Shown in pieces: positions 15,874 to 23,872 of a DNA stretch of 64,000 nt (position 1 is its first letter; each line of letters starts with the position of its first letter). The notes beneath the pieces are model-generated. The model was not told where the DNA came from. It saw nothing but the letters and a program-made list of their open reading frames with translations, and did not search any database. The DNA is from Paenibacillus bovis (GTDB lineage Bacteria; Bacillota; Bacilli; Paenibacillales; Paenibacillaceae). The stretch covers positions 1,481,501 through 1,545,500 of the forward strand of contig NZ_CP013023.1 in NCBI RefSeq assembly GCF_001421015.2, in the 5' to 3' direction. The translations under genes were made by a program, and so were the position numbers.

Positions 15874-15983
15874 CGGAAAAGAAAAATGGTGTAAATATAA
15901 AACCTTTTTGAAGATCTGCCGTAATATAGACAGTCAGGAAAATTGAATTAGTCAAAAAGGCACTAGATTTTCCTTCTTTTTGA

Positions 15984-16012
15984 TTGAATGGGTAAAGTTT
16001 GTACCTTATAAT
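15984..16012 (+). promoter_or_regulatory. Promoter of coiled-coil gene pair
   Basis: TTGAAT (15984-15989) and TATAAT (16007-16012) are 17 bases apart and lie about 43 bases before the start at 16055. This is a good vegetative-type promoter. Confidence 0.7.
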
Positions 16013-16054
16013 CAAAGTGATTCAATACTATGTAAACTAATGGGGGATATGCCA

Positions 16055-16474
16055 ATGCTCGTAGGTAAAGGCGCAGTACGCGAGATGTCCAATGACATCG
16101 ATAAAGTAATTAGAGAGATCGATCAGATCACACAATCCAAAATTGACCGTGTAGCCGACAAAATCGACTCCGAATTGAACTCCTGTGGTCGTGAGCTGAC
16201 TAATGCTGCCAGCACATTGTCCCAAATTAAACCCCTGATGGATCGTCTGGTTGCACAGGTTGGACAAAATGCACCTGACCACGTACAGATTCTGGTAACT
16301 TCGATCGCGCAGGAAGTAATGTCCAAAGTTATCGCAGCAGGTGGCAACGTTGACGAAGTACAGAAAAATATCAAAGACGTCGACAAACTGACTGACGAGA
16401 TCGATAACCTGACCGATGAGATCGACAAGCTGACTAACAAAATTGATGAGATCACTGACAAATATCAGAAATAA
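16055..16474 (+). CDS. Small coiled-coil protein with heptad repeats
   Basis: The 139-residue protein is almost entirely helical. The first part (about 5-100) is an amphipathic helical bundle, and the last 40 residues consist of tandem seven-residue units of the type D-K-L-T-D-E-I, four times in a row, ideal for a coiled coil. No signal peptide or membrane segment is present. GGGGG lies eight bases before the ATG at 16055, which is preferred over the ATG at 16049. The gene is followed after 14 bases by a second small helical protein, so the two are co-transcribed and may form a complex. No family was recognised; the size recalls WXG100/LXG-associated proteins, without the WXG motif. Confidence 0.78.
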   Translation: MLVGKGAVREMSNDIDKVIREIDQITQSKIDRVADKIDSELNSCGRELTNAASTLSQIKPLMDRLVAQVGQNAPDHVQILVTSIAQEVMSKVIAAGGNVDEVQKNIKDVDKLTDEIDNLTDEIDKLTNKIDEITDKYQK

Positions 16475-16488
16475 GGAGGCTTATCTCC

Positions 16489-16839
16489 ATGAACGACTAT
16501 ACACCACCGGTAGGTGGCCAGCCCAACTACATATCCGGGTGGGGCAATCAGAAAGCCAAGGAAACGGCTCTGAAAATTGACCATATTGCGGATAAAGCCA
16601 AATTTGGCATTGAGATTCTGGGTTCCGGTCTGGTCGGTATTGATGCGATCGAGAAAGAGTTGATCGAGCTCTCGCATGCTCCGAATCCTCCATCCCAGGA
16701 ACAGATTCGCTCTATCGCACACCGTCTGGATTCCCACCAGAAGCAGATCCAGCAAGCGCTTGATCGGATCCGGGACATGATGACCGATATTGATAAAGCG
16801 ACAGACGCGATTCAGAATTCACCGCGTACCAGCTGGTAA
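16489..16839 (+). CDS. Small helical partner protein
   Basis: The 116-residue protein begins with a short Pro/Gly-rich segment (TPPVGGQPNYISGWGNQ). It is then helical throughout, with a Gly-containing break (GIEILGSGLVG) and a C-terminal amphipathic helix ending in DMMTDIDKATDAI. AAGGAGG precedes the ATG at ideal spacing. It is encoded 14 bases after the heptad-repeat protein and before a strong terminator, so both form a two-gene operon. The two proteins resemble each other in size and helical layout but not in sequence. The function is unknown. Confidence 0.78.
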   Translation: MNDYTPPVGGQPNYISGWGNQKAKETALKIDHIADKAKFGIEILGSGLVGIDAIEKELIELSHAPNPPSQEQIRSIAHRLDSHQKQIQQALDRIRDMMTDIDKATDAIQNSPRTSW

Positions 16840-17516: not shown

Positions 17517-17786
17517 GTTTGATTTGGTGAAAAGGAGGAAATAGTCTGTATAGGCTGGTTATTCCTCTATTCAGCACAGCGCATTATCTAAATTCCACTC
17601 CGCGTATTTTGGCAAATATCATCGTGTCACGCAGCCGTCCCTCATGATTCAGACGATCCGGCGACTCAAGCATTATCCACTCCATACCTTGTGGAAATAC
17701 ATATAAAAATAAAGTCATACTACATATAAAAAGAGCATCGTATAAAATGAAATACTTTTAAAAAACCGCTTTTTTTGGTTGATAAA

Positions 17787-17801
17787 TAGTAATGATTACG
17801 A
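17787..17801. promoter_or_regulatory. Zur box 1
   Basis: TAGTAATGATTACGA matches the Bacillus Zur consensus TCGTAAT-N-ATTACGA at 13 of 14 fixed positions. It lies 67 bases before the start of the binding-protein gene. Confidence 0.8.
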
Positions 17802-17823
17802 TAAGATGAAAACCGATATTAAA

Positions 17824-17838
17824 TCGTAATTATTACTA
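17824..17838. promoter_or_regulatory. Zur box 2
   Basis: TCGTAATTATTACTA matches the Zur consensus at 13 of 14 fixed positions. Its centre is 37 bases from that of box 1, and the box lies 30 bases before the GTG start of the importer operon. Confidence 0.8.
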
Positions 17839-17867
17839 AGTATAGATATATAGCGGGGGGAACGATT

Positions 17868-19535
17868 GTGAATAAGACAGGTAAAGCCAGCCGGTGGAGT
17901 AAGTCCGTACAGTCATCAGACCAGGCCAATAATAAAAACACTTCTACATATACGAGAGCCTATACATCAGGCAGTTCGTTGTACAGATGGGTAAATGTCA
18001 AAGGAAAAACAAGCAAATACACGCCGGGACTGATCATACTGCTTCTCTGCGCCGTTATGCTCGGAGCCTGCTCGTCTCCTTCTTCCAGCGCCAAGGAGCA
18101 GGGCAAGCATATCAGCTTCCTGTATAACTTCTCTACCAACTCGCTTGATCCGCATGTGGACTCCAGTTATGTGCCGATTCGTGCCGGGATTACCGAGACG
18201 CTGGTTCGTCTGGATGAAGACAATCTGACAGTCGCGCCATGGCTCGCCGAGAGCTGGGAAGGGACAGATGGGCAGAACTGGAAAATAAAGCTGCGGGATA
18301 ATGTGACTTTCCAAAATGGCAAGCCGATGACAGGAGACGCGGTCAAAGCTTCCCTGGATCGTGCCATGACCGAGAGCATCGCTGTCAAAAATGCACTCAA
18401 GATCAAAAGTATTCAGGCAGATGGAAATACGCTGCAGATCGTAACCACCCAGCCTTTTCCGGAATTTATCTCGGAGCTGGTCAATCCCAATACTTCGATT
18501 ATCGATGTGACCGAGACAGATGTAGTGAACAAGCCTGTTGGTACAGGACCTTTTCTGCTGAGTTCGTTCACACCCGGCAGCAAGCTGGAAGTCAAGCGGT
18601 ATGATGGTTACTGGGATGGCGCCTCTCCACTGGATGGAGTAACTTTTGCCTTTAACGAGGATGCCAATGCCCGTTCGCTGGCGCTGCGCTCCGGACAGGT
18701 GGATATCGTATATCGTCCCGAAATAGAGAGCCTGGATACACTAAATGCCGAGCCGGGGATCAAGGTGGAATCGACGTCTACGTTCCGGGTGCATCAGTTA
18801 ACGATGAATATGGAGCGTCCGGCTCTGCAGGATGTCAATGTACGCCGGGCGATGGACGCACTGATCGACCGGCAGAAGATCGTAGATACGATCCTGCTGG
18901 GACATGGAGAAGCGGCAACAGGACCTTTCCTGCCATCGCTGCCATTTGCACCGACCTATGAACCGTCTCCACTGGGAGCGGACGCAGCCGTAGATTATCT
19001 TCAGCAGGCAGGCTACTCGCTCGTCAACGGCCAGATGCAAAAAGACGGCAAGCCGCTGCAGTTAACCTTGCTGACCTACCCGGCACGGGCGGATCTACCG
19101 CTGATCGCACAGGTGTTCCAGTCCGACGCCAAAAAGATCGGTATTCAGGTGGAAATTCGCCAGATAGATACACCGGAAGATTATATGGCAGCCAATCGCG
19201 ATTGGGATCTGGCGACCTACAGTAATCTGACCGCGCCGCGCGGAGATGCAGGTTATTATCTGAATGCCACCTATCATCCGGATGGCGCACTGAATTTTAG
19301 TGGAGCAGAAGATCCCAAGCTGACAGCTATTATCGACCAATTGAACCGTACTGTCGAGCCGGAGAAACGGGCTGTACTGGCCGAGCGGGCTGCTGATTAT
19401 GTACATGATAATGTAATTAATTCCTTTGTTCTGCACCCGTCGACCATCGTGGCTTATAACGAAGAGAAAGTGAAAAACTGGATCACGACGCGCAGTGAAT
19501 ACTATATGATTACCAACAAGCTGGATGTGATGTAA
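17868..19535 (+). CDS. ABC importer substrate-binding lipoprotein (SBP family 5, NikA/CntA-like)
   Basis: The 555-residue precursor has an unusually long n-region of about 54 residues before the hydrophobic leader, with lipobox LGAC and Cys68. The mature part is a family 5 solute-binding protein (DppA/NikA/CntA), with SFLYNFSTNSLDPHVDSSY at the start, LRDNVTFQNGKPMTGDAVK, and VRRAMDALIDRQKIVDTI in the middle. The GTG follows GGGGGG. It heads a tightly coupled five-gene operon. The two Zur boxes upstream point to zinc starvation as the signal, so the ligand is probably a zinc complex such as an opine metallophore, or possibly nickel. This ligand is inferred from regulation, not read from the protein. 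Confidence 0.92.
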   Translation: MNKTGKASRWSKSVQSSDQANNKNTSTYTRAYTSGSSLYRWVNVKGKTSKYTPGLIILLLCAVMLGACSSPSSSAKEQGKHISFLYNFSTNSLDPHVDSSYVPIRAGITETLVRLDEDNLTVAPWLAESWEGTDGQNWKIKLRDNVTFQNGKPMTGDAVKASLDRAMTESIAVKNALKIKSIQADGNTLQIVTTQPFPEFISELVNPNTSIIDVTETDVVNKPVGTGPFLLSSFTPGSKLEVKRYDGYWDGASPLDGVTFAFNEDANARSLALRSGQVDIVYRPEIESLDTLNAEPGIKVESTSTFRVHQLTMNMERPALQDVNVRRAMDALIDRQKIVDTILLGHGEAATGPFLPSLPFAPTYEPSPLGADAAVDYLQQAGYSLVNGQMQKDGKPLQLTLLTYPARADLPLIAQVFQSDAKKIGIQVEIRQIDTPEDYMAANRDWDLATYSNLTAPRGDAGYYLNATYHPDGALNFSGAEDPKLTAIIDQLNRTVEPEKRAVLAERAADYVHDNVINSFVLHPSTIVAYNEEKVKNWITTRSEYYMITNKLDVM

Positions 19536-20479
19536 TGGGCCGGATTCTGATCCGCAAATTTCTGGAAACCCTTGGGTTTGTATTGTTTATTACTTTTATT
19601 AGTTTTCTATTTATCCGTATGGCACCGGGCGATCCGGTGCTGACGATTCTGAATGTGGATGAATTATCCGTCAGTCAGGAGCAGGTAGAGGCATTAAGAG
19701 AAGAGATGGGATTCAATCAGCCATTGCTCGTTCAATACGGGCAGTGGCTGCTGGATTTCGTACGGCTGGATTTTGGACAGTCGTATGTAACCGGTCAGCC
19801 TGTTATGAAAATGATTATGGGCGGGCTGCCGGCGACACTGGAATTAACCGGCGGTGCGCTGGTAATTATGCTGCTGATTGCGCTACCGCTCGGCTCTCTG
19901 TCGGCTTTGTACCGGAACAGCTGGATCGATCATATGAGCCGGCTGCTGTCGATTATAGGCGCGGCGGTGCCTAGCTTTTGGCTTGGCTTGATTCTGATAG
20001 ATCTGTTCGGCGTCCGGCTCGGCTGGCTGCCGACCATGGGACGGGATGGATGGATTTCGCTGCTGCTGCCTTCCCTGACACTGGGACTGGCTATTTCCAG
20101 CGTGTATGTACGTCTGCTGCGTTCGAGTCTTCTGGATTCGCTCGGACAGGAGTTTGTACGGGCTGCACGGGCGCGGGGATACAGTGAATTACGTATTTTC
20201 TGGGTACATGCCCTTCGTCATAGCCTGCCGCCTGTGATTACGGTATTTGGCGTCAGTCTGGGCAGTCTGATCGGGGGTGTCGTGGTGATCGAGGTATTGT
20301 TTGCCTATCCCGGTATCGGCAAGCTGGTCGTGGATTCGATCCGCCAGCGGGATTATCCGCTGATTCAGGGCTATATTCTGGTGATGGCGGCTATCGTATT
20401 TGTCGTTAATACACTGGTGGATCTATCCTACCGTTACCTTAACCCCGAGATGAAGCTCAAAGAAAGGAAGACCGGCTGA
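19535..20479 (+). CDS. ABC importer permease (NikB/CntB/DppB-like)
   Basis: The 314-residue inner-membrane permease starts with the DppB-type helix (IRKFLETLGFVLFITFISFL), then FIRMAPGDPV. It has the EAA coupling loop FVRAARARGYSELRIF about 40 residues before VVVIEVLFAYPGIGKL. About six membrane segments are present. Its ATG shares one base with the stop of the binding-protein gene, so translation is coupled. It pairs with the following permease to form the translocation channel. Confidence 0.95.
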   Translation: MGRILIRKFLETLGFVLFITFISFLFIRMAPGDPVLTILNVDELSVSQEQVEALREEMGFNQPLLVQYGQWLLDFVRLDFGQSYVTGQPVMKMIMGGLPATLELTGGALVIMLLIALPLGSLSALYRNSWIDHMSRLLSIIGAAVPSFWLGLILIDLFGVRLGWLPTMGRDGWISLLLPSLTLGLAISSVYVRLLRSSLLDSLGQEFVRAARARGYSELRIFWVHALRHSLPPVITVFGVSLGSLIGGVVVIEVLFAYPGIGKLVVDSIRQRDYPLIQGYILVMAAIVFVVNTLVDLSYRYLNPEMKLKERKTG

Positions 20480-21330
20480 TGAGAGAATTATCCATACCTG
20501 CGATGCCACGGCGCAGCAAGCACGGCTGGCAGGGAGTTATCGCATTTTTATTTGTTCTGGTTACGATTGTGGCTTCGATTTATGCTTTTGGTTGGCTTAA
20601 ATATGATCCCAATACGACGGATCTTGGTGATCGTCTGCAGGAGATGAGCATGCTGCATCCGCTGGGTACGGATCATCTGGGCAGGGATGTGCTGACGCGT
20701 CTGCTGCTTGGTGGACAACAGACGCTAGGTTACAGTCTGCTCGCGCTGGGAGCAGCACTGCTGATCGGTATTCCGTTCGGGCTGATTTCGGGATACCGCC
20801 GTGGCTGGGTTGACCGGATCTTTATGCGGATCGCAGACAGCTTTTTGTCTTTTCCCGATACGATTGTAGCGATTGTATTGAGCGGTCTGCTCGGTGCAGG
20901 CATCGGCAATCTGGTACTGGCGATCGTGGTTGTAAAATGGGTCAACTATGCGCGGCTCGTACGCAGCACGGTATTGTCCGAGGCGCAAAAAGATTATGTA
21001 CAGATTGCACGTACCAACGGGTTGTCGCCAGCCACTATTATGCGCAGGCATCTGTTGCCGCATGTACTTGGTCATGTGCTCGTATTGGCGAGTCTGGATC
21101 TGGGCAAAATTATTTTGCTGATCTCGGCATTCTCTTATATTGGACTGGGGGCACAGCCGCCAACACCGGAATGGGGAGCGATGCTTAATGATTCGCGTCC
21201 ATATTTCCAGTCGCGTCCGGAGCTGATGATCTATCCGGGACTGGCGATTGTATCGGTCGTACTGCTGGCGAATATGCTGGGCGATTATTTGCGTGACCGT
21301 TTTGATGTGAAAAGGGAGGTGCAATCATGA
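20479..21330 (+). CDS. ABC importer permease (NikC/CntC/DppC-like)
   Basis: The 283-residue permease has a short cytoplasmic N-terminus and a first membrane helix. The DppC-type periplasmic loop follows, with MSMLHPLGTDHLGRDVLTRL, then the EAA coupling loop DYVQIARTNGLSPATIMRRH and the conserved YIGLGAQPPTPEWGAML. The start overlaps the preceding stop by one base. Together with the upstream permease it forms the heterodimeric channel of the Zur-controlled importer. Confidence 0.95.
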   Translation: MRELSIPAMPRRSKHGWQGVIAFLFVLVTIVASIYAFGWLKYDPNTTDLGDRLQEMSMLHPLGTDHLGRDVLTRLLLGGQQTLGYSLLALGAALLIGIPFGLISGYRRGWVDRIFMRIADSFLSFPDTIVAIVLSGLLGAGIGNLVLAIVVVKWVNYARLVRSTVLSEAQKDYVQIARTNGLSPATIMRRHLLPHVLGHVLVLASLDLGKIILLISAFSYIGLGAQPPTPEWGAMLNDSRPYFQSRPELMIYPGLAIVSVVLLANMLGDYLRDRFDVKREVQS

Positions 21331-22136
21331 TTCTGACGATGGATAAGGTAACGATACGCAGCCGCGAAAAAACGATCGTCGATGAAGTCTCCCTAACCGT
21401 GCATGAAGGAGAATGGTTCGCACTGGTCGGTCAGAGCGGCAGCGGCAAAAGCCTGCTTTCCCAAGCAGCCGGACGCATGCTGCCACCGAATCTGCAGATG
21501 GAAGGCCATATCAGGCTCCATGGGCAGGATTTGCTGAGTCTGTCTGCACGGCAGATGCGCGATATTCGCGGTCGCAGGCTGGCATATGTATTTCAAGATT
21601 ATCAGGGGTCATTTACACCATTCCGTACGATTGGGCAGCATCTGGATGAATACCAAAAGGTTCACGGCATTACCCCGGGTGCTGTACGCAAACAGCAAGG
21701 CATGGAGGCACTGGAGTCTGTCGGGTTGGAAGCGGAACTGTACCGACGGTATCCTTTTCAATTGAGCGGTGGGCAGCTGCAGCGGGTATCGATTGCGATG
21801 GCGCTGATGCTGTCACCGGATGTGCTGATTGCCGACGAAGTCACGACAGCGCTGGACAGTGTATCCGGTCATCGGATTCTGGAGCTGCTGGCACACAAGC
21901 AGCGGGAGACGGGCTGTGCAATTCTTTTTATTACTCATGATTGGCGTCATGTTCGCCGGTATGCCAGTCGTCTGGCGGTGATGCAGGAAGGGCGGATCGT
22001 CGAGACGGGCGGCAAGCACCGGATTCTGGATCATCCCCGGCATCCGTATACCCGTCAGCTGATCCAGGCCACGCCGATGCTGCACAAGCCGGGCCACCTG
22101 CTGCCTTCCGGTTTGCAGGAGGTGAGAGGACAATGA
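21327..22136 (+). CDS. ABC importer ATP-binding protein (NikD/CntD-like)
   Basis: The 269-residue ATPase has Walker A GQSGSGKS (about 36-43), a Q-loop in VFQDYQGSFTPF, signature LSGGQLQRVS and Walker B VLIADEVTTALD. The switch histidine lies in FITHDW. Walker B ends in Asp-Glu-Val-Thr rather than the more common Glu-Pro-Thr, as is often seen in NikD-type subunits. The start overlaps the permease stop by four bases (ATGA). It energises uptake together with the next gene. Confidence 0.95.
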   Translation: MILTMDKVTIRSREKTIVDEVSLTVHEGEWFALVGQSGSGKSLLSQAAGRMLPPNLQMEGHIRLHGQDLLSLSARQMRDIRGRRLAYVFQDYQGSFTPFRTIGQHLDEYQKVHGITPGAVRKQQGMEALESVGLEAELYRRYPFQLSGGQLQRVSIAMALMLSPDVLIADEVTTALDSVSGHRILELLAHKQRETGCAILFITHDWRHVRRYASRLAVMQEGRIVETGGKHRILDHPRHPYTRQLIQATPMLHKPGHLLPSGLQEVRGQ

Positions 22137-22894
22137 GCCTGCTGCAGGTTGATCGGCTGAACAAGTCGTATGCACCGGATAAGCGTGTGCTGAATGAAGT
22201 GTCCTTTGCAATCGAATCGGGAGAATGCCTGGGTCTGGTCGGAGAGAGCGGATGCGGCAAAAGTACGCTGGCCCGCTGCCTGCTGCGGATAGAATCAACA
22301 GATAGCGGCTCTATTGTACTGGATGGACATTCTATCGAGAAAATGAATGACCATCAGCTGTATCCTCACCGCAGGAACATGCAGATCGTTTTCCAGAATC
22401 CTTCGGCAGCGCTGAATCCCAAGCTGAAGATTCGGGACTCCTTGCTTGATCCCTACCGGCAGTACCGTCAGGAACTGAGATTGCAGCATTTCCAGCCGTC
22501 ATCCGAACAGCATCTGATCAAGCAGCTGCTGGAAGCGGTAGAGCTGTCAGATACGCTGGCCGATAGGTATCCTCATGAGCTGAGCGGCGGTCAGCGTCAG
22601 CGGGTAACGATTGCCCGCGCGATCAGTATCGAGCCGCAGCTAGTTGTACTGGATGAGCCGACAGCCAGTCTGGATGTGATCTCCCAGGGAGCGGTACTTC
22701 ATTTGCTAACACGGCTGCGTACCGAACTGAATCTGTCGTATCTGTTCATTTCCCATGATCTGGCGGCTGTTCATCAGATGAGCCAGCGTATTATGGTCAT
22801 GAAGGATGGCCAGCTGGTAGATCAGTTCCCGCAGACCGCCTTGTTTGCAGAAGAGCGGCATGCGTATACAAGAGAGCTGATTTCGATTTTTTGA
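22133..22894 (+). CDS. ABC importer ATP-binding protein (NikE/CntF-like)
   Basis: The 253-residue ATPase has Walker A GESGCGKST, Q-loop VFQNPSAALNP, signature LSGGQRQRVT, Walker B LVVLDEPTASLD and switch histidine in FISHD. The ATG at 22133 overlaps the previous stop by four bases and follows GAGAGGA. The open frame extending upstream to 21941 is only overlap with the preceding gene. It is the last gene of the operon; a hairpin follows. No metallophore synthesis genes (cntKLM type) or exporter lie downstream. Confidence 0.95.
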   Translation: MSLLQVDRLNKSYAPDKRVLNEVSFAIESGECLGLVGESGCGKSTLARCLLRIESTDSGSIVLDGHSIEKMNDHQLYPHRRNMQIVFQNPSAALNPKLKIRDSLLDPYRQYRQELRLQHFQPSSEQHLIKQLLEAVELSDTLADRYPHELSGGQRQRVTIARAISIEPQLVVLDEPTASLDVISQGAVLHLLTRLRTELNLSYLFISHDLAAVHQMSQRIMVMKDGQLVDQFPQTALFAEERHAYTRELISIF

Positions 22895-22924
22895 ATTAAA
22901 ATACAGAAGAGAATACATGTAAAT

Positions 22925-22964
22925 AGACTCAGCCGATCATAGATTGAAATGATCCGCTGAGTCT
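22925..22964. terminator. Hairpin between importer operon and ATP-grasp gene
   Basis: AGACTCAGC (22925-22933) pairs with GCTGAGTCT (22956-22964), and GATCAT pairs with ATGATC inside. It serves as a terminator between convergent genes. Confidence 0.7.
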
Positions 22965-22999
22965 GTTTGTATAGGAGTATTAAGATGAGGTCGGTTTGG

Positions 23000-23836
23000 T
23001 TATGCTTTGATTGCCTGCTCGAGAGATTGTATCATCCGGCTGATAAAGCGGCGGGAATAATTCACCGGGATATCCAGCAGGGATAGATAGGGATTCAAAT
23101 CTTCCAATTCCACGAGCAGCAGCTCTCCGCTGGCTGTGCGGCAGGCATCGACGCGCTGGATGCCACAGCTGATATGATTCCAGCGGATAAATTGCTCGGC
23201 AAAAGCAAAATCAGACGGCTGTGGATCATACAGCTCCATCTTCCAGCGCTGCTGCGGGTCGGGAGCATACAGGGCATATTGAAATTCATGATCGATATAA
23301 TAAAAGGAAACCTCATATTCAAACGGGATATACGGCTGGATCAGCATCCGCTGGTCACACGCAGCAAGTGCTTGTTGAAAGTGATCGGCGGATACACGCT
23401 GTACACCATGCGAATCGGCACCATCGAATGGCTTGATAATATATTCTTTGCTATCCGGTAGCCGGTGCAGCTGCTCTAGGTGATCAATAGTCGGAATAAC
23501 CGGATATTGTGCAGCAGTCAGCTCCAGCAGATAGGATTTGCCATTCATATCGGCATGACCATCCAGACTGTTGTATGTCTTTAGCTGCTGCGCCTGAATC
23601 CGCTGCCGGAAAGCCTCATACTGATCCTGGTACGGAGCGACCGGTCCGGCATTGCGGAACACGATCAGATTGGCAGTATGTTCAAAGGGCTCGGTATCTT
23701 CGGGATGACAAAGAATAATCCGGAAATACTGCCGAAGATGCGACGTCAGAAAAAGATCTTCTTCGTAATAATGGCGTCCTTTGGCTTCATAGTACAGATC
23801 GGTTACCCATAAAAGGGTGTGCTGGCGCAATTCCAT
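23000..23836 (-). CDS. Orphan ATP-grasp protein
   Basis: The 278-residue cytoplasmic protein has the ATP-grasp layout. An N-terminal alpha/beta part holds LLWVTDLYYEAKGRHYYEED. The nucleotide-binding strands YIIKPFDGADSHGVQRV lie near residue 135. The metal-binding end is LLLVELEDLNPYLSLL, with acidic residues and Asn in the usual order. ATP-grasp enzymes join a carboxylate to an amine or thiol through an acyl phosphate; the substrate here is unknown. The ATG at 23836 follows AGGTGG. Only the octanucleotide array and 40 other bases separate it from the upstream XRE-cupin gene on the same strand, so the array lies in its leader. Confidence 0.8.
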   Translation of the reverse strand: MELRQHTLLWVTDLYYEAKGRHYYEEDLFLTSHLRQYFRIILCHPEDTEPFEHTANLIVFRNAGPVAPYQDQYEAFRQRIQAQQLKTYNSLDGHADMNGKSYLLELTAAQYPVIPTIDHLEQLHRLPDSKEYIIKPFDGADSHGVQRVSADHFQQALAACDQRMLIQPYIPFEYEVSFYYIDHEFQYALYAPDPQQRWKMELYDPQPSDFAFAEQFIRWNHISCGIQRVDACRTASGELLLVELEDLNPYLSLLDIPVNYSRRFISRMIQSLEQAIKA

Positions 23837-23872
23837 ACCCACCACCTGCTTTCACTAAAGTAAAATCGCTCC

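Follow-up and report, generated by a model that had tools for sequence, protein, structure and literature searches.

An Opp5A/NikA-type importer of Paenibacillus bovis under probable Zur control, a candidate for the uptake of zinc bound to a nicotianamine-like chelator

Which metal, and in what form, does an importer bring into the cell when its database name says nickel and its promoter carries boxes for Zur? The question is raised by a window of 64,000 nucleotides of Paenibacillus bovis (contig NZ_CP013023.1; G000:C1:1481501-1545500), part of a genome of 5.5 Mb in two contigs, in which a five-gene ATP-binding cassette (ABC) importer operon occupies positions 17868-22894 of the + strand. On balance, and with modest confidence, the analysis favors the reading that the importer is repressed by Zur and takes up zinc in complex with a nicotianamine-like chelator, one that the cell probably scavenges. 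The nearest named relatives by binding protein, Paenibacillus dauci and P. wulumuqiensis, are 95% identical in that protein, and the operon and its control region comprise the following features.

17779..17807, + strand: predicted sigma-A type promoter (-35 TTGATA at 17779-17784, -10 TAAGAT at 17802-17807, spacer of 17)
17787..17801, no strand assigned: Zur box 1, TAGTAATGATTACGA, 13 of 14 positions, inside the promoter spacer
17824..17838, no strand assigned: Zur box 2, TCGTAATTATTACTA, 13 of 14 positions, just 3' of the -10
17868..19535, + strand: substrate-binding lipoprotein, Opp5A/NikA family (555 amino acids, GTG start, lipobox LGAC, SBP_bac_5; NF045468 at 731 bits, cut-off 600)
19535..20479, + strand: permease, Opp2B type (NF045470 at 442 bits, cut-off 350)
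20479..21330, + strand: permease, Opp2C type (NF045474 at 356 bits, cut-off 300)
21327..22136, + strand: ATPase 1, NikD/CntD-like (NF047578 231/380, NF047576 229/385, TIGR02770 214/318.7; below every equivalog cut-off)
22133..22894, + strand: ATPase 2, NikE-like (best TIGR02769, 238/332.55; below every equivalog cut-off)
22921..22968, no strand assigned: inverted repeat, possible terminator 3' of the operon (20-nucleotide arms, 90% complementary, 8-nucleotide loop)

Each operon box departs from the Zur consensus used for scoring, TCGTAATNATTACGA, at a single position, as the original prediction had stated, and the five-gene peptide/nickel-type operon that it described is present, with gene ends that abut or overlap. 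Its placement of the boxes on either side of the promoter did not hold, as box 1 occupies the spacer of the predicted promoter and box 2 follows directly on the -10, a layout that fits repression. The promoter match (9 of 12 positions) is alone not above chance (one found, with 1.6 in shuffles), and it is retained in the nearest relative (L016). Within the window, no site besides the two operon boxes comes within two mismatches of the consensus; six further sites have three mismatches, where shuffles average 3.4 sites at three or fewer. Across the whole genome, places with two or fewer mismatches are not above the control (24 compared to 20 for a reversed pattern), and so only strict sites, with at most one mismatch, were counted as evidence. 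There are five strict sites in the genome, two of which are the operon boxes; of the rest, two stand before ZigA-like zinc GTPases and one before a transporter of the MFS.

The two GTPases are neighboring paralogues (G000:C1:3478188-3480874; L012:6189-8875, - strand), each with its own one-mismatch box, and score 537 and 541 bits, slightly under the cut-off of 600. The transporter (MFS_1/MFS_3, with a distant likeness to EntS; G000:C1:2924389-2925702; L011:6389-7702, - strand) is likewise preceded by a one-mismatch box. A candidate zur, a Fur-family gene that reaches no NCBIfam cut-off (L015:2447-2992, - strand), has a two-mismatch box 62 bp upstream, and another two-mismatch site heads a znuCBA-like operon whose binding protein also reaches no NCBIfam cut-off; both sites are merely noted, as such sites equal the control in frequency. 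The two-mismatch places in L006-L010, L013, and L014 had nothing zinc-related about them by eye.

Among relatives, the box was sought at two or fewer mismatches within 450 nucleotides upstream in 85 rows of the NikA family, which are not a random sample and include many close species. It was present in 64 of the 85, including every one of the 38 rows of the window's clade (35 at one mismatch or fewer), a group that received a support of 96 in a tree of the 85 rows made by a quick method and carrying a long-branch warning. Elsewhere the box occurs in all four NAS-linked rows, six of nine cntLM-linked rows, 7 of 11 rows at 56-69% identity, four of seven exporter-linked rows, and five of nine other rows below 56% identity, and it was absent by the same measure from the staphylococcal rows (0 of 5) and two distant paralogues (0 of 2). 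As controls, the operon bodies (425 kb) contained a single site, and 6 of 1,700 shuffled upstream regions had one. Four boxless rows at 65-69% identity carry three-mismatch sites, which alone prove little. Left out of the 85 rows were five with identical proteins (L048, L177, L181, L195, and L202), all of which have boxes; the near-duplicates L166 and L182, distinct sequences with a one-mismatch box each that would raise the count; the split matches L049 (one-mismatch box) and L051 (no box); L151, with a broken nikA and no box at two or fewer mismatches; and L203-L205, which were too distant.

The strict genome sites and the conservation within the clade support both the Zur control and the zinc uptake put forward in the original prediction. 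Judged from the sequence, the operon is almost certainly under Zur control: Zur would bind the two boxes, and the metal taken up would presumably be zinc. The same evidence bears on the database name. It is conceivable that this is a nickel importer for which the Zur boxes provide a side control, as the best-scoring NCBIfam model is named for nickel, but strict Zur boxes are kept in the window's clade and absent from the five staphylococcal rows, and zinc GTPase genes adjoin some copies of the importer (the further loci L167, L180, L192, and L198), which makes nickel a very unlikely cargo.

By its profile scores, with the binding protein and both permeases over their NCBIfam cut-offs, the importer is of the Opp5A/Opp2 type, the type that NCBI names 'nickel' after its staphylococcal members, rather than the Cnt type to which the original prediction had likened it. 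Membership in the Cnt group was rejected on the CntA (114/800) and CntC (239/440) models, on low identity, and on the presence in relatives of cnt clusters with importers of their own. Eight such clusters (L084-L089, L091, and L092), each preceded by a box with two or fewer mismatches, hold cntL, cntM, a CntA-type binding protein, their own permeases, and an MFS gene, and their CntA-type proteins are only 23-27% identical to the binding protein of the window. For comparison, L085 scores 930/800 for CntA, 651/235 for CntE, and 238/300 for CntK, with CntK and CntE in the other seven clusters assigned by position and likeness. In the cluster of P. dauci (L086; G003:C1:294001-313000), the cntM homologue is split in two with an internal stop and the other cnt genes look whole; the break may reflect gene decay or an error in sequencing.

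The binding proteins can also be compared at individual residues. CntA W103, R140, and Y410, which we take to be the staphylopine contacts, are present in all eight CntA rows; in the Opp5A rows neither W nor R ever stands at the first two of these positions. The third position is gapped in the automatic alignment and was paired by eye with R391 of the window protein, which all 78 rows outside the staphylococcal and paralogue groups share, as do all five staphylococcal rows. An ordinary di- or oligopeptide importer under incidental Zur control would belong to the same SBP_bac_5 superfamily, but the peptide models lie far below their cut-offs (Opp4A 94/650, DppA 82/1005, OppA 51/947), which, taken with the linkage to metallophore genes in relatives described below, leaves peptide import highly improbable, and it was rejected on the profile scores.

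In other Bacilli, the company kept by the importer points to a metallophore. Among 398 sampled genomes of the class, the Opp5A model passes its cut-off in 83 (Staphylococcus included) and PF10100 (CntM) does so in 49. Every CntM row of 425-534 bits, eight in all, has an Opp5A-type NikA (a broken one in one case) no more than 8 kb away, compared to 0 of 41 higher-scoring CntM rows near a NikA that is over the cut-off; the two lists were compared by eye, with the fragments of G101 and three rows below the cut-off set aside. Two arrangements form contiguous operons on one strand: cntL, cntM, an EamA gene, and NikABCDE at eight loci (L090 and L144-L150), and NAS, MATE, and NikABCDE at four (L178, L183, L187, and L189). 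Pfam was applied to examples only, the remaining linked genes being tblastn matches to those, and gave NAS scores of 45 bits for CntL of L090, 73 for NAS of L178, and 117 for NAS of L183, a score of 498 for CntM of L090, and matches to EamA in L090 and to MatE in L163, L178, and L183. The four NAS operons have no cntM and are a possible CntM-free zinc chelator system. One of the cntLM loci (L146; G124:C1:3310001-3329900) carries two nikABCDE operons in tandem with cntL, cntM, and an EamA gene, and a type-1 cntM lies elsewhere in that genome.

The linkage of Opp5A-type importers to metallophore genes supports metallophore uptake, as does the CntE-type exporter gene that follows the operon in one member of the window's own clade (L044, described below), and the metallophore idea of the original prediction thus appears correct in outline, although on other grounds. 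Import of a zinc chelate is quite probable on these grounds, and a nicotianamine-like nature for the chelator, read from the relatives, is somewhat favored. The linkage further bears on a simpler ligand. Staphylococcal NikA is a nickel importer that takes up nickel with histidine, and an importer of zinc with free histidine could be the same mode with the metal switched: staphylococcal NikA is of the same family and, among solved structures, follows 3t66 (795 bits) as the closest to the binding protein (263 bits), and R391 is joined by several other pocket-candidate residues in being common to the staphylococcal rows. Set against this, the operons of relatives are linked to cntLM or NAS, and W71, R98, and H242, which are invariant in the 78 non-staphylococcal, non-paralogue rows, differ in all five staphylococcal rows, so that the zinc-histidine ligand is rather improbable.

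Whether the cell makes the chelator itself was addressed through its genome, since no metallophore synthesis gene lies in the window, just as the original prediction had observed. No match was found in the window's genome for PF10100 (CntM) or for PF03059 (NAS), the latter a weak test, as a known CntL itself scores only 21-22 bits. Because PF03059 is too weak for CntL, a dedicated CntL/NAS profile (A1) was built, and it too had no match in this genome; as a positive control, A1 matched 3 of 16 genus genomes at E-values of 1e-106 to 1e-114. Within the genus, the cntM and CntL searches found both targets in 3 of 16 genomes, and the importer is over the cut-off in 15 of 16. Of the two sources left open by the original prediction, a metallophore made elsewhere in the genome by known genes finds no support, and one made by other species is the best reading. 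With none of the known synthesis genes in evidence, the chelator probably has a foreign source, and we give scavenging, as opposed to self-synthesis, about even odds.

Exporters speak for self-synthesis, in the form of a chelator made by genes unrelated to cntL, cntM, or NAS, exported, perhaps by the Zur-boxed MFS transporter, and re-imported with its zinc. That transporter has orthologues (64-100% identity) in 4 of 16 genus genomes, and all four have the box. A MATE gene adjoins the importer in 15 more rows that have no synthase, at 34-58% identity to the MATE of L183 (that of L168 being a separate gene 6 kb away), and a strong CntL/NAS match is missing from all 15 genomes. Further, Sutcliffiella rhizosphaerae (L044), whose NikA is 73% identical and falls within the window's clade, has a CntE-type exporter gene (373/235 bits; L044:15134-16363) located 385 bp after nikE, in a genome with no cntM and no strong CntL. 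Conversely, no synthesis gene for such a shuttle is known or was found, the MFS orthologue reaches only 4 of 16 genus genomes compared to 15 of 16 for the importer, and the exporters may equally recycle a foreign chelator. Taken together, a self-made shuttle is unlikely.

Under the preferred reading, the uptake of a scavenged zinc chelate, Zn-Zur would block transcription by occupying both promoter boxes when zinc is ample, and the operon would open under zinc shortage. Extracellular zinc, complexed by a nicotianamine-like chelator, would then be captured by the lipoprotein and brought in by the permeases and ATPases, two of each. The chelator would probably come from other microbes or from plants, in the latter case as plant nicotianamine.

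It should be noted that several observations weigh against this reading. The ligand is drawn from relatives at only 41-53% identity and, staphylococcal NikA being a nickel importer, may have shifted within the family. No box at two or fewer mismatches precedes 21 of the 85 rows, among them three of nine cntLM-linked rows and all five staphylococcal rows. No cntL, cntM, NAS, EamA-type, or MATE gene of the query set adjoins the operon in the DNA examined for the 38-row clade, where three rows have less than 8 kb on one side, and L044 aside, 37 of the 38 rows adjoin none of the tested synthesis or export genes. Judging by the 15 MATE rows, some members of the family manage without a known synthase, and the Zur-boxed MFS transporter leaves room for the export of a self-made, unknown chelator.

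In the tree, the branches next to the clade have MATE in 8 of 11 rows, and its sister group includes members linked to NAS, cntLM, and MATE. Among the genomes with close orthologues, 32 were searched whole (L018 was left out): 18 have both cntL and cntM, one gene having an internal stop in two of these, and 14 have neither.

A wider proposal, that outside Staphylococcus the 'nickel' NikA/Opp5A importers are a zinc-starvation family for nicotianamine-like zinc chelates, and that carriers without a synthase, of the Paenibacillus type, pirate the chelators of neighbors or plants, is put forward only tentatively and is less probable than the reading of this one locus. If true, the widely used label of nickel importer would misname the system in many Bacilli (the 83 of 398 genomes over the cut-off, Staphylococcus included), the orphan Opp5A importers would be the zinc counterpart of siderophore piracy, and the operons of NAS, MATE, and NikABCDE would add a CntM-free class of bacterial zinc chelators invisible to a map based on CntM. 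Such a map of zincophore clusters was drawn by Morey and Kehl-Fie 2020 (PMC7438024), in passages of which clusters 1, 2, and 5 are given dipeptide/oligopeptide-type importers and most of the remaining clusters EamA exporters, with the general statement that a chelator whose synthesis bypasses CntM would escape the map. As that map, on the evidence of those passages, starts from CntM, importers without CntM and the NAS-MATE operons would be outside its reach. A literature search of titles and abstracts found no report of a Zur-controlled Opp5A/NikA importer, subscription papers on NikA and CntA structures falling outside its scope. The kind of system is already known; new, as far as the searches reach, are the link to Opp5A, the orphan importers, and the NAS-MATE operons.

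Several further details of the locus were recorded. The lipobox cysteine of the binding protein is residue 68 (coded at 18069), which bears out the unusually long n-region of the original prediction; its start site and rough length are common to the two nearest relatives, and its sequence is little conserved in them, so that there is no evidence for any role and a functional one was dropped. The start of ATPase 2 was taken as the ATG at 22133, picked by the overlap with ATPase 1, in an open reading frame that opens upstream at 21941. Downstream of the operon, on the opposite strand, lies an ATP-grasp-like protein (23000-23845, - strand; under the Pfam cut-off), and at 15980-16839 (+ strand) are two small proteins with charged helix-like stretches (repeated E-I-D..L-T), the second of which (116 amino acids) has no Pfam match.

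Besides the mapped zincophore clusters, three known systems provide the closest comparisons. Staphylococcal NikABCDE (Opp5A + Opp2BCDF) has the same gene order and the same NCBIfam equivalogs for the binding protein and permeases, and forms one operon in the five loci read at 35-37% identity to the window, but differs in having no Zur box (0 of 5) and no adjoining metallophore gene of the query set. The cntL-cntM-EamA-NikABCDE operons, such as that of Fictibacillus aquaticus (L090), have an importer 50-62% identical to that of the window, a NikA of 750/600, and Zur boxes, and differ in that the genome of the window has neither cntL nor cntM. The CntABCDF importer of staphylopine and bacillopaline shares its superfamily and gene set with the importer described here and, according to passages of PMC5666155, is Zur-controlled and takes up zinc with a nicotianamine-like chelator.

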